Below are positions 2,213 to 6,148 of a stretch of DNA of 64,000 nt, piece by piece (the first letter of the stretch is position 1; every line of letters begins with the position of its first letter). The stretch comes from Paenibacillus sp. G2S3 (GTDB lineage Bacteria > Bacillota > Bacilli > Paenibacillales > Paenibacillaceae). The notes under the pieces are model-generated. The model worked only from the letters and a program-made list of their open reading frames with translations, had not been told where the DNA came from and ran no database searches. Both the position numbers and the translations under genes were made by a program. The stretch spans positions 6,200,001 through 6,264,000 of the forward strand of contig NZ_CP126095.1 in NCBI RefSeq assembly GCF_030123105.1, read 5' to 3'.

Positions 2213-3796
2213 TTATCTGCCGACTGTGCCGGTGGAATTAATCAATTTGTCGAGCAGTTCATCAAAAGTAGTCATAAAACGCGCAGCAGCACTATAAGCA
2301 TGCTGGAACACGAGCATATTCGACATTTCTTCATCCAGTGAAACACCACTGACTGATTGACGACGGGAGTTAACCTGCTCTACCAGATAATCTGAGTTAT
2401 CAGTTTGACGCGCTGCCTCCTGCGATTGAATACCGAGCTGACCAACCATAGAGCCTAGAAGCCCACCCACAGTATTGCTAACTTTACCGTCTGGCGTAGT
2501 GAATTTACTATCCTTGAGGTTCGTCAATAAAAGAGCCAAGGTGTTATTTCCTTTAACAACCTGCGTTTTACCATCAGCATCAACAGTTGTACGCAGTGAG
2601 GTTGCGAATAAACTTACATCCGCAGCAATTTCCGGATTCAACTTGATCGTTCCAGCATCACCAGAGGTTACAAAGAAATCACGACCAGCGCTTCCATCCA
2701 TCGCATAACCTAACTTGTGAAGTCCGTTCAAGCCTTTGACAATGGTCTTAGCGTCCTCATACATCGTTGCTCCCTTAGGCATTGCTTGACCAGCGGCCAA
2801 AGTAACTACGGTTCCATCCGCTTGCTTAATCTTGGCATCATTAGTTAACACGGTACCTTCAGGAAGATTGGAACCAGCCGGTATTGTAATTTCAACGTCA
2901 CCAGTAGCAATCGTACTAGCCATATCGTTGAGTTGTTTCTTGTAGTCGGTAACATAAGTATTTTTGGAGAAAATCATTCCGTAAGCTTCGCCGCCCTTCA
3001 AAGTGCCAGCGGCATAAGCATTATTAAGAAATGCACTATCTACGTTTGCAGTAACTTCTCCGCCCTCTACCAGTGGCTGTCCACCCAGAGAAACGTTATA
3101 ACCAGCTTCCGTTTCCACAACGGTAATATTAGCAATTTTGGATAGCTTGTCCGCCATCAGATCGCGTTGATCGCGTAAATCATTCGCCTGATCGCCCATA
3201 CCCTCAATCTTATAAATCGATTTATTCAGATCTGCGATAGCGGTCAGGTAGCCCTGAGCCTCTTTTGCTTTAACGTCAATATTAGTAGTTAGATCCCGAT
3301 CAAGATTATCTAATTGCGTGCTCATATAATTCATGGCATCGGTCAAAGATTGTGCAGTTTGCACTACAATCTTACGAGCAGTAGGATCCTCAGGGTTTTT
3401 ACTAAGGTCAGACCATGATTTCCAGAAGTTGTCCAGCACCGTACGAATACCTGTATCCGATGGTTCATTAACAATCGCTTCTAGTTTAGAGAGGGTATCT
3501 GCTTGAAGCTTCCAGTTCCCAAATGCAGAATTCTCACCACGGTACTGATCATCCAGAAACATTTCCCGAATCCGATCGATAGATGAGAATTCCACCCCTG
3601 TGCCCATTTGACCGGGAACGGTAGATTTATTAAATCCGTACGCTTCAATAGGTAAAGCAGCCTTCATATTTACACGTTGACGAGTATAACCCTCGGTATT
3701 CGCATTTGCGATATTGTGTCCAGTCGTATTAAGAGCTGCGGTCTGAGTAAAAAGGCTGCGTCTCGCCGTCTCTATCGAGTGAAATGTGGATGTCAT
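2213..3796 (-). CDS. flgK: Flagellar hook-associated protein 1 (HAP1)
   Basis: 527 residues. The N-terminus carries the rod/hook motif (LNTTGHNIANANTEGYTRQ) and the C-terminus the matching FlgK end (VSGVSLDEEMSNMLVFQHAYSAAARFMTT). FlgK joins the hook to FlgL. It lies between flgN, its chaperone, and flgL, its neighbour in the filament junction. Confidence 0.97.
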   Translation of the reverse strand: MTSTFHSIETARRSLFTQTAALNTTGHNIANANTEGYTRQRVNMKAALPIEAYGFNKSTVPGQMGTGVEFSSIDRIREMFLDDQYRGENSAFGNWKLQADTLSKLEAIVNEPSDTGIRTVLDNFWKSWSDLSKNPEDPTARKIVVQTAQSLTDAMNYMSTQLDNLDRDLTTNIDVKAKEAQGYLTAIADLNKSIYKIEGMGDQANDLRDQRDLMADKLSKIANITVVETEAGYNVSLGGQPLVEGGEVTANVDSAFLNNAYAAGTLKGGEAYGMIFSKNTYVTDYKKQLNDMASTIATGDVEITIPAGSNLPEGTVLTNDAKIKQADGTVVTLAAGQAMPKGATMYEDAKTIVKGLNGLHKLGYAMDGSAGRDFFVTSGDAGTIKLNPEIAADVSLFATSLRTTVDADGKTQVVKGNNTLALLLTNLKDSKFTTPDGKVSNTVGGLLGSMVGQLGIQSQEAARQTDNSDYLVEQVNSRRQSVSGVSLDEEMSNMLVFQHAYSAAARFMTTFDELLDKLINSTGTVGR

Positions 3797-3850: not shown

Positions 3851-4351
3851 CTAGCCTCGTGCATCAAAAATCCCCGACCGATTCACGCCATTGCCTTTGT
3901 CGGACGGACGATGATATGTGATATCCTGATTCGGTCTTCCGACCAGCAGATCCAAAGAATAATCTATAAAAGTAAGCGACTGTTCTATCAGCTTCTGATT
4001 AAGCTCATTTGCTTCTTTCAAGCGGTACAAAGTGCCAGAAAGCTTCTGCTGAATATGCAGCAGTCGTGCCTTGTCTTCAGGGTCAAATATAAGTCTGGAC
4101 AGCTCAGTTAGGTTCAGGTTCAGGTTGGAACGAATACCTACGCCTTGCAAAACGGTATATGCTGCCGCGATTCGCTGTTCCTCGAGCTGTCCAATTAGTT
4201 TCATTAGCTTGGACTCACGGTTCAGGATGTCGATTAATGCATCCACCTTGTTGTCCATAATCGTCTGTTTTTTCTCAGCGGCCAGCTCTAGCATTTGGTT
4301 ATGCACTTCGTCCAGCCGCTCCAATAGTTCTATTAATGTCGTCAATGCCAT
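3851..4351 (-). CDS. flgN: FlgN family flagellar export chaperone
   Basis: About 166 residues, nearly all helical with heptad-like Leu/Glu spacing (LIELLERLDEVHNQMLELAAEKKQ), as in FlgN/YvyG. FlgN holds FlgK and FlgL in the cytoplasm before export. The frame opens with a GTG at 4363 directly after the flgM stop; I prefer the ATG at 4351, which has AGGTG 9 nt upstream. Confidence 0.88.
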   Translation of the reverse strand: MALTTLIELLERLDEVHNQMLELAAEKKQTIMDNKVDALIDILNRESKLMKLIGQLEEQRIAAAYTVLQGVGIRSNLNLNLTELSRLIFDPEDKARLLHIQQKLSGTLYRLKEANELNQKLIEQSLTFIDYSLDLLVGRPNQDITYHRPSDKGNGVNRSGIFDARG

Positions 4352-4363
4352 GGATGGTTTCAC

Positions 4364-4648
4364 CTAATTCTCGGAGGATTGCTTAAAGTAAGGGGCGAGT
4401 TTCTCTGCTAGCTTAGCTGCATCTACTTGATAGGTACCTGCGGAGACCTGTTGCTTCAAACTGTCGATCTTAAGTGCACGTTCAGCATCATTACCAGAAT
4501 TCTGTGCTTGCAAGAGCTGAATTGCTTCATCAGAGATCGAAACCTCATCCTTGCGTGAACTTTTCTTCATTTGTTCCTGCCTTTGCGCATCCGCGCTGCG
4601 TTGATACGGATTAATCGCGTTAATTCGTCCGGTCTCGTTAATTTTCAT
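4364..4648 (-). CDS. flgM: Anti-sigma-28 (sigma-D) factor FlgM
   Basis: 94 residues. FlgM-type N-terminus (MKINETGRINAINPYQ), low-complexity middle and C-terminal sigma-binding helices (VSISDEAIQLL; IDSLKQQVSAGTYQVDAAKLAEKL). FlgM sequesters sigma-D until the hook is finished. AAGGAAGGTG precedes the ATG. It directly abuts flgN and is preceded by a sigma-D promoter, so its own target sigma factor makes it, as in B. subtilis. Confidence 0.95.
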   Translation of the reverse strand: MKINETGRINAINPYQRSADAQRQEQMKKSSRKDEVSISDEAIQLLQAQNSGNDAERALKIDSLKQQVSAGTYQVDAAKLAEKLAPYFKQSSEN

Positions 4649-4670
4649 AACTTCACCTTCCTTCTAATAT

Positions 4671-4704
4671 AAAAAAGCCGATAATCTTTACTAAGTTTAT
4701 CGGC
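4671..4704 (-). terminator. Intrinsic terminator between yvyF and flgM
   Basis: On the minus strand GCCGATAA (4704-4697), a 12-nt loop and TTATCGGC (4684-4677) form a perfect 8 bp stem followed by six T (4676-4671). It should end transcripts arriving from comF-yvyF. Its 5' arm is also the -10 element of the flgM sigma-D promoter. Confidence 0.85.
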
Positions 4705-4724
4705 GTAGACTGAAACATACTTTA
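4697..4724 (-). promoter_or_regulatory. Sigma-D promoter of flgM-flgN-flgK-flgL
   Basis: TAAA (4724-4721), 16 nt, then GCCGATAA (4704-4697) matches the B. subtilis sigma-D consensus TAAA-N15-GCCGATAT with one base changed and one extra spacer base. The position between yvyF and flgM is that of the known B. subtilis sigma-D promoter. Transcription would start near 4690, inside the terminator loop. Confidence 0.85.
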
Positions 4725-4750
4725 TAGCTGCAAACGTTTTTTTGCAGATT

Positions 4751-5161
4751 TTATAGGCCACGCAATTTGTCTATGGCACGATATGCACCGTCTGTTGTCT
4801 TTTTAGTAGTATCCTCAGCAGCACTTTCCTTTGCAGCATTGGTGAGATCCTTCCTGAGCCGAGTACGGCAGGTATCACACATATGCCCATCGCGAATCAG
4901 CGTTCCACACACCTCGCAGGGATACATCATATTAGGAGCATTTGCTATAGATATCCGGCCCTCTCGAATAAAGCGGGTGATCTCCTTAATCGAAATTCCC
5001 GTAGCATCGGACAGCTCTTGAATGTTGGTTCCTTTGTTTTCCCGCAAATAATCTACGCAGATCTCATAATCATGCTCCAGCTCTTTGATGCAGGGCTGGC
5101 ACAACCCCATAAGATTCTTAACAAACAACCGGCCGCACCTTGGACAATTGTCTAGATTCAT
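4751..5161 (-). CDS. yvyF: YvyF-type zinc-ribbon protein of the flagellar operon
   Basis: 136 residues from the ATG at 5161 (MNLDNCPRCGRLFVKN, matching the family start). Two CxxC pairs at the N-terminus (CPRC, CQPC), a helix-turn-helix-like middle (IQELSDATGISIKEITRFIREG) and a second zinc ribbon (CEVC, CDTC). Resembles the YvyF/TIGR03826 family; the DNA-binding look suggests a regulator, but no function is established. An upstream ATG at 5197 is possible, but the family start favours 5161. Confidence 0.85.
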   Translation of the reverse strand: MNLDNCPRCGRLFVKNLMGLCQPCIKELEHDYEICVDYLRENKGTNIQELSDATGISIKEITRFIREGRISIANAPNMMYPCEVCGTLIRDGHMCDTCRTRLRKDLTNAAKESAAEDTTKKTTDGAYRAIDKLRGL

Positions 5162-5329
5162 AACAAGCAGCCGCTCCTCTCCGTACATTCTGTACAACGC
5201 ATAATATCCTTATGCTCCTAGATTACATGATTGCAAAGAATTCGTCTATGGGACGGAAGAAACGCTATTACGGGCATGGATCTCTTCAAAAAGTGAATGG
5301 ACTGTTCACAATCATGCATTTCGCTCTCC

Positions 5330-6148
5330 TTAGGAACGTGCCCAAGTTAGGCTATACAGCTCTACCGCATAACCATAATTTGAACCCATTTGTTGTATGA
5401 TCTCAGCGCACGCACGAATGGTACTGCCCGTTGTATAAATATCATCAACAATAATAATCCGAAGAGGACGAATTAGAGATACCTCACTATTCATCCAATC
5501 CGCAAATTGTGTTGTTACTGCCGGATTCTCCGCAAAAGCGTGCTTCATATCCGCTAGTCGTTCCGCTCGGCTCTTAAAGCTCTGTTTTCCCGTATGATGT
5601 GTGCGGATCAGCAGCGGAAGCTGTGGAATCTTCCTACATCTAGATAGCACATCAGCCAATCTTTCCGCTTGATTAAATCCTCGCTCCATTAGCCGGGAAT
5701 CACTGACAGGCACTGGCACTAACAAATCAGCAGACCAAGAACGATAGATGATGAATGGTTTTCGGGATAAAAGAGCGCTCTGCTTCTCTTTTTTTAGGGT
5801 TAGATAGGCTCTATCCAGCATGAGGCCTAGTAAAGGGGCATACCGTTCATTCCCGCGATATTTATACTGACCCAACCATTCTCGCATAACACTAGTGTAA
5901 GCCACTGCACTTCGATTACAAATAATCGGTGACGGTTCACTACTGCGGGTACAGTCAGGACAGCCCACATGCCGACCACATTTCATGCAACGAGGGGAAC
6001 GTATCCAAGGAATGGATTCTACGCATATTCTGCAAACTCCAGGAAATTGTGAAGATCCAGGATTACGCTTGCCGCAGGTTAAGCATGGAGTTACGGAAGG
6101 GGACAAGAGTGCCCGAGATTTGGTTAACCATGAGAACAGGGAGCTCAT
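5330..6148 (-). CDS. comFC: ComFC, phosphoribosyltransferase-like competence protein
   Basis: 272 residues. An N-terminal zinc ribbon (CLTC, CRIC, CMKC, CPDC) is followed by a phosphoribosyltransferase fold with the PRPP loop IIIVDDIYTTGST near the C-terminus. ComFC acts in DNA uptake during transformation with the ComFA ATPase, probably handling incoming single strands. Its ATG overlaps the comFA stop by 4 nt, so the pair is translationally coupled. comFB, between the two in B. subtilis, is absent. Confidence 0.93.
   Translation of the reverse strand: MSSLFSWLTKSRALLSPSVTPCLTCGKRNPGSSQFPGVCRICVESIPWIRSPRCMKCGRHVGCPDCTRSSEPSPIICNRSAVAYTSVMREWLGQYKYRGNERYAPLLGLMLDRAYLTLKKEKQSALLSRKPFIIYRSWSADLLVPVPVSDSRLMERGFNQAERLADVLSRCRKIPQLPLLIRTHHTGKQSFKSRAERLADMKHAFAENPAVTTQFADWMNSEVSLIRPLRIIIVDDIYTTGSTIRACAEIIQQMGSNYGYAVELYSLTWARS

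Follow-up and report, generated by a model that had tools for sequence, protein, structure and literature searches.

Intrinsic (Rho-independent) terminators placed between operons consist of a GC-containing stem followed by a T run, and hairpins whose formation depends on where the RNA starts are also known. In Escherichia coli pyrC, a leader hairpin depends on the start site; a single promoter offers adjacent starts, and the choice among them affects translation. Part of flgM expression in E. coli comes from read-through out of flgA, and in the flgA–flgM gap of strain MG1655 (L321) the octamer GCCGATAA serves as a sigma-28-type -10 box just before flgM, as at the locus described here, but no right arm and no T run were seen there. 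For Bacillus subtilis, a comF-yvyF-flgM operon is listed (PMC8849057), and read-through along these genes is cited as reaching flgM (Liu and Zuber 1998, as cited in PMC4793158).

Here, we examined the gap between a yvyF-like gene and flgM in a 64,000-nt stretch of the genome of Paenibacillus sp. G2S3 (the window). The gene order and the presence of a sigma-D promoter before flgM are the same as in B. subtilis; however, the Bacillus loci that we read carry GTCGATAA or GACGATAA and no T-run terminator, and read-through, which reaches flgM in B. subtilis, should not do so here. As in other inter-operon terminators, a GC-containing stem and a T run stand at the end of the comF-yvyF unit, but here the sigma-D -10 box forms the left arm of the stem; with the start predicted inside the loop, RNA from the element's own promoter should escape. 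As in pyrC, hairpin formation would depend on where the RNA starts, whereas the choice here would be between transcripts of two origins and would act on termination. Terminators before promoters and start-site-dependent hairpins are already known. Among the open-licence papers listed, no title or beginning of an abstract described a -10 box as a terminator arm at flgM.

Anatomy of the element and its gene neighbourhood

The element lies on the minus strand between the yvyF-like gene and flgM, and consists of the following parts.

4724–4721, minus: TAAA, -35 box of the sigma-D promoter (read directly from the sequence)
4720–4705, minus: 16-nt spacer between the -35 and -10 boxes (sequence)
4704–4697, minus: -10 box GCCGATAA, which is also the complete left (5') terminator arm, complementary to 4684–4677 (sequence; covariation in 73 sequences)
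4696–4685, minus: 12-nt loop ACTTAGTAAAGA, containing the predicted start A4689 (RNAfold; conserved T/A)
4695–4693 with 4688–4686, minus: CTT paired with AAG, inner 3-bp stem inside the loop (RNAfold)
4684–4677, minus: right (3') arm TTATCGGC of the terminator stem (sequence; covariation)
4676–4671, minus: T6 run (TTTTTT) of the intrinsic terminator (sequence)
4665–4656, minus: Shine-Dalgarno-like AGAAGGAAGG of flgM (sequence)

The promoter fits the sigma-D (sigma-28) consensus TAAA-N13-16-GCCGATAW exactly, with a spacer of 16 nt; this is the consensus given for B. subtilis SigD (PMC3865298). An earlier note on this DNA had described the TAAA box, the 16-nt spacing, the -10 box, the 8-bp arm, and the T6 run, and direct reading confirmed each of them together with its coordinates. 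The inner CTT/AAG pairs, which are separated from the 8-bp arm by an A.A mismatch, were absent from that note. The complete hairpin (8 bp + 3 bp) has a predicted energy of -11.5 kcal/mol, and in the read-through RNA its end pairs form with probabilities of 0.97 and 0.93 (RNAfold). A stable stem is followed immediately by a T run, as in an intrinsic terminator. The whole yvyF–flgM gap was not unusually stable (folding z -1.68 and -1.86). A known Rfam element was ruled out at the locus, as no covariance model of a leader or riboswitch family matched within 4300–5300 at E-values up to 1. Immediately ahead of the -35 box, where yvyF ends, lies a second, imperfect palindrome, CTGCAAAAAAACGTTTGCAG (4728–4747, minus); many congeners have it too, with both of its sides altered in part.

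The neighbouring genes, all on the minus strand, are listed in the order of transcription.

5330–6148, minus: comFC-like gene upstream of yvyF (zinc ribbon and phosphoribosyltransferase, both below the Pfam cut-off; name putative)
4751–5197, minus: yvyF-like zinc-ribbon gene (ORF; weak Pfam PF18912 match below the cut-off; named by position)
4364–4648, minus: flgM, anti-sigma-D factor, 94 aa, ATG at 4648 (Pfam PF04316, E 1.3e-12)
3851–4363, minus: flgN, GTG start in the ORF list (Pfam PF05130, E 3.2e-25)
2213–3796, minus: flgK, hook-associated protein (Pfam PF22638, E 1.1e-46; PF06429, E 1.9e-11)
1280–2197, minus: flgL, hook-associated protein (Flagellin_N, E 3.9e-28; Flagellin_C just under the cut-off; named by position)

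The stop codon of the yvyF-like gene, the presumed source of read-through, ends 46 nt before the left arm. Of the 235 relatives, 220 have a CxxC-CxxC motif upstream of flgM in a forward frame and none has it in a reverse frame, counted as a motif match and not as an open-frame match.

Conservation of the overlap among relatives

A FlgM match was obtained for 99 of 100 genomes at genus level, for all 245 drawn from the family, for 58 of 60 at the level of the order, and for 116 of 161 at that of the class; the sets share members, and the window's own genome is counted in them. From them, we read 235 flgM loci. Other congeneric genomes supplied 97 of 98 (L029, truncated by the end of its contig, was left out), the rest of the family supplied 49 of 213, the order outside the family 39 of 39, and other orders 50 of 103. 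Under a strict criterion, a locus had to reach an arm score of at least 6.5 of 8, with wobbles given half weight, and to carry 4 or more T among the 8 positions that follow the arm.

The earlier note had left undecided whether other species share the overlap. The hairpin was present in all 97 congeneric loci, 95 of which passed the strict criterion; both exceptions still have the hairpin, one with a weak T run (L022) and the other at approximately 531 nt upstream of the FlgM match (L037). Across the class as sampled, the criterion was passed by 174 of 235 loci, 38 of 76 genera, and 14 of 36 families, including one locus with a doubtful promoter that was counted as positive (L215, family f38). 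A fold-based look revealed a hairpin with a T-rich tail in families f22 (L254), f30 (L189), and f46 (L255 and L213) as well. When one locus was taken per genus, an arm score of at least 7 was reached in 36.3 of 66 genera, and in 34.1 together with at least 4 T; shuffling the downstream DNA lowered the former value to 0.75, and exchanging partners between genera lowered it to 20.2. This genus test used the 223 loci with a promoter call inside the stretch searched, and the other 12 of 235, which were dropped there, were counted as failing in the strict count.

The spacing between the -35 and -10 boxes in the 174 strict loci was 16 nt in 157, 15 nt in 16, and 14 nt in 1. Over the five positions that directly follow the arm, T had a frequency of 0.81–0.91; this was measured on 57 unique variants from a set chosen for at least 4 T of 8. 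In one congener (L038), two tandem promoter-hairpin copies precede flgM, approximately 210 nt upstream of the FlgM match. Long stretches between the element and flgM were seen in L035, L037, L059, L123, L126, and L186, with the -10 box at 315 to approximately 531 nt from the FlgM match.

Covariation of the -10 box and the right arm

Lineages differ in their -10 octamer, and changes in it are accompanied by changes in the right arm. The pairs of -10 box and right arm found in nature include GCCGATTA with TAGTCGGC, GCCGATGA with TCATCGGT, GCCGATAT with ATGTCGGT, GCCGATAC with GTATCGGT, ACCGATAA with TTATCGGT, and TCCGATAA with TTATCGGA; these octamers also have less perfect right-arm partners in other genera. 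Among the 73 sequences of set A2, 94.0% of cells were paired, a percentage that is inflated by the choice of the sequences for an arm score of at least 6 (at least 6.5 together with at least 4 T in set A3). When the partner was slid by 1–3 columns, pairing fell to 20–48%. The earlier note had suggested aligning the yvyF–flgM gap and looking for paired changes, and such changes, keeping both the promoter and the stem, were found: there were 41 double-changed cells against 4.3 ± 2.1 in 500 shuffles, none of which was as high, these counts being conditional on the arm-selected sets and their units being sequences rather than independent events. The covariation score was likewise higher than in any of the 500 shuffles (0.264 against 0.135 ± 0.011). 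The number of pairs altered in both arms (3 against 2.0 ± 0.6, reached by 88 of 500 shuffles) and the number of further pair types (11 against 9.1 ± 1.2, reached by 56 of 500) were not clearly above the shuffles. Wobbles were tolerated, the first pair being G-C in 26, G-U in 22, and A-U in 18 sequences and the sixth U-A in 55 and U-G in 13. The stem of the terminator is thus kept by compensatory changes.

Predicted position of the start and geometry of the loop

Among 100 unique variants, 89% have T at position +7 after the -10 box and 94% have A at +8. Because these two bases are conserved, we placed the sigma-D start at about +8 (A4689 here), and the composition of the sequences thus points to a start within the loop. 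The distance from the -10 box to the right arm was 11–18 nt in all 174 strict loci, although 4–23 nt had been searched, and the predicted start, 8 nt after the -10 box, lay within the loop in 174 of 174. With a loop of 11–18 nt in every case, the right arm begins downstream of the predicted start every time. An RNA begun at this position would lack the entire left arm.

Chance expectation and confinement to flgM

To estimate how often such an overlap arises by chance, the -10 box was kept fixed, the 48 nt downstream were shuffled 200,000 times, and a complement was sought 4–23 nt away. A perfect 8-nt complement appeared in 15 of the 200,000 shuffles, and one with 5 or more T among the 6 following positions in 1 of 200,000. 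These shuffles rule out a chance origin of the hairpin overlap.

The whole genome contains 20 sites of the form TAAA-N14-16-SCCGATAW, most of which are attributable to chance because a reversed control pattern gives 17. The flgM site had an arm score of 8 of 8; the other 19 scored 3 to 6, and none had more than 3 T in the next 8 positions. Flagellin (hag) genes were found in 30 of the 31 congeneric genomes searched. All 30 upstream regions had a called sigma-D promoter, and an arm score of at least 7 was reached in 0 of 30 (highest, 6.5). The hag promoters and the other 19 genomic promoter-like sites rule out the hairpin as a general property of sigma-D promoters. At locus L290, the sigma-D-like promoters of a putative flagellin gene (GTCGATAT, 3254, minus) and a putative flaG-like gene (ACCGATAT, 1677, minus) are also without a hairpin.

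A covariance model of the composite element (R1), which was built from the flgM loci and could miss looser relatives of the design, gave a strong match (E < 1e-6) in 59 of 61 congeneric genomes, the window's own included, and all 59 matches were located 120–498 nt upstream of the FlgM match. The two remaining genomes were one cut at flgM (G014) and one without a FlgM match (G089). The next-best matches in the genus had E-values of 0.003 or worse. Across the class, at least one match with an E-value up to 0.1 was obtained in 55 of 121 genomes, and many of these matches were weak and not at flgM. Use of the element at other genes was rejected for four of the stronger matches away from flgM (L357, L358, L359, and L361), which look like ordinary terminators. 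Among the strong R1 matches in the genus and the promoters compared, the element is confined to flgM.

Proposed mechanism and alternative explanations

The most probable reading, which we hold with considerable confidence, is that a sigma-D promoter nested in an intrinsic terminator filters transcripts by their origin. A polymerase arriving from comF-yvyF would copy both arms, the stem closed by the -10 sequence would fold in the RNA, and the read-through RNA would stop in the T run before flgM. A polymerase carrying sigma-D would instead start at about A4689 in the loop, and its RNA, without the left arm, would continue into flgM-flgN-flgK-flgL. Production of FlgM, the inhibitor of sigma-D, would then have to await active sigma-D, giving negative feedback, and upstream read-through would contribute none. 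A plausible reason for the element is to keep synthesis of the anti-sigma factor dependent on sigma-D itself.

The core of the earlier note's proposal, namely that read-through stops while sigma-D transcripts escape, is supported by arms that covary with the -10 box and tolerate wobbles, by the TA in the loop, by an arm that always stands 11–18 nt from the -10 box (174 strict loci), and by hag promoters without an arm (0 of 30). Its wording that expression is "strictly sigma-D dependent" was too strong, as terminators leak and other promoters are possible. In Paenibacillus polymyxa, one table lists higher YvyF and FlgM in swarming cells (log2 5.65 and 5.3; p 0.08 and 0.15) and a second YvyF entry that is unchanged (PMC6878767); these protein levels neither show nor exclude read-through.

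The same molecular outcome would be expected if an ordinary yvyF terminator and an ordinary flgM promoter shared letters to save space in a short gap, without having been selected as a filter of origin. The gap is indeed short in many congeners, where the -10 box lies 155–158 nt before the FlgM match. However, the overlap has been kept where there is room for both, with the -10 box at 385, 387, and 399 nt (L059, L123, and L035) or about 531 nt (L037), it has been kept through compensatory changes over many families, and the loop always lies around the predicted start; we therefore regard simple sharing of letters as unlikely. The overlap itself is not required to block read-through, as a terminator upstream of the promoter would do the same and, unlike the element, would protect the promoter; the element gives its promoter no protection from being run over because the polymerase crosses the promoter before stopping.

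Two further explanations place the function of the repeat in the DNA. The dyad forms an imperfect 28-bp palindrome over the -10 region, and its loop CTTAGTAAAG is strongly conserved within the genus, as might be expected of an operator bound by a dimeric regulator with no RNA hairpin involved; yet the arm spacing varies from 11 to 18 nt, G-U pairs are tolerated, the loop differs in other genera, and the T run stands on one side only, with A before the left arm at 0.30–0.51, which makes an operator very improbable. Still less probable is a cruciform or melting aid that helps sigma-D to open the promoter: the repeat is centred near the predicted start site, but 30 of 30 congeneric hag promoters do without it and the T run would be left unexplained. 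The nested promoter-terminator thus remains the preferred reading.

If this reading is correct, the element offers a protein-free means of placing a gene downstream of other genes under the control of one sigma factor, and the filter is located at the anti-sigma factor of that same sigma factor, where read-through would be harmful. It would also turn the oddity of B. subtilis, in which competence read-through lowers motility, into a testable evolutionary contrast, and provide a compact and portable design for insulated alternative-sigma promoters. By analogy with the recycling of polymerase after termination described for E. coli in single-molecule assays (PMC6978380), a polymerase stopped at the element, which would be sitting on the sigma-D promoter, could be recycled there.

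Lineages without the overlap

The strict criterion was failed by 61 of 235 loci. The earlier note had regarded relatives that keep the promoter and not the right arm as evidence against its proposal. Such relatives do occur, in a minority comprising genera g9 and g2, parts of g8 and g5 (all of the same family), Bacillus, and several families of the order and class. This minority shows lineage-specific absence and is no argument against the element where it is present. The upstream zinc-ribbon motif was found in 57 of the 61 failing loci too; the presence of the motif therefore does not explain which lineages keep the element.

A separate terminator upstream of the flgM promoter was found in L154, L155, L223, and L246, which belong to g9 and two other lineages. 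Such a terminator was present in 4 of 49 loci without the overlap against 1 of 174 with it, and counted by genus the excess was not significant (3 of 33 without against 1 of 38 with; p 0.33). The 29 Bacillus loci and one Metabacillus locus (B. subtilis itself was not included) carry the promoter GTCGATAA or GACGATAA, and their arm scores range from 4 to 6. When the 250 nt preceding flgM were scanned for terminators, none was found in any of the 30.

It is conceivable, although we hold this only tentatively, that the nested promoter-terminator is a general and old device of the class that passes only messages made with its own sigma factor, and that its putative loss in Bacillus enabled the link by which ComK-driven competence read-through reaches FlgM.

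The Bacillus gap has a feature of its own (L257–L284 and L286; about 3415–3503). The motif GATTCC is located at the yvyF stop codon in 27 of 29 loci, with GATTTCC in the other two (L271 and L282), and GGAATC adjoins the flgM ribosome site in 29 of 29. One Metabacillus gap was without the outer helix of GATTCC and GGAATC (z +1.36), which was predicted in all six Bacillus gaps folded (z -0.89 to -3.10). Sigma-D RNA would be without the left half of this modelled helix, which might cover the ribosome site and may be a translational counterpart of the terminator.
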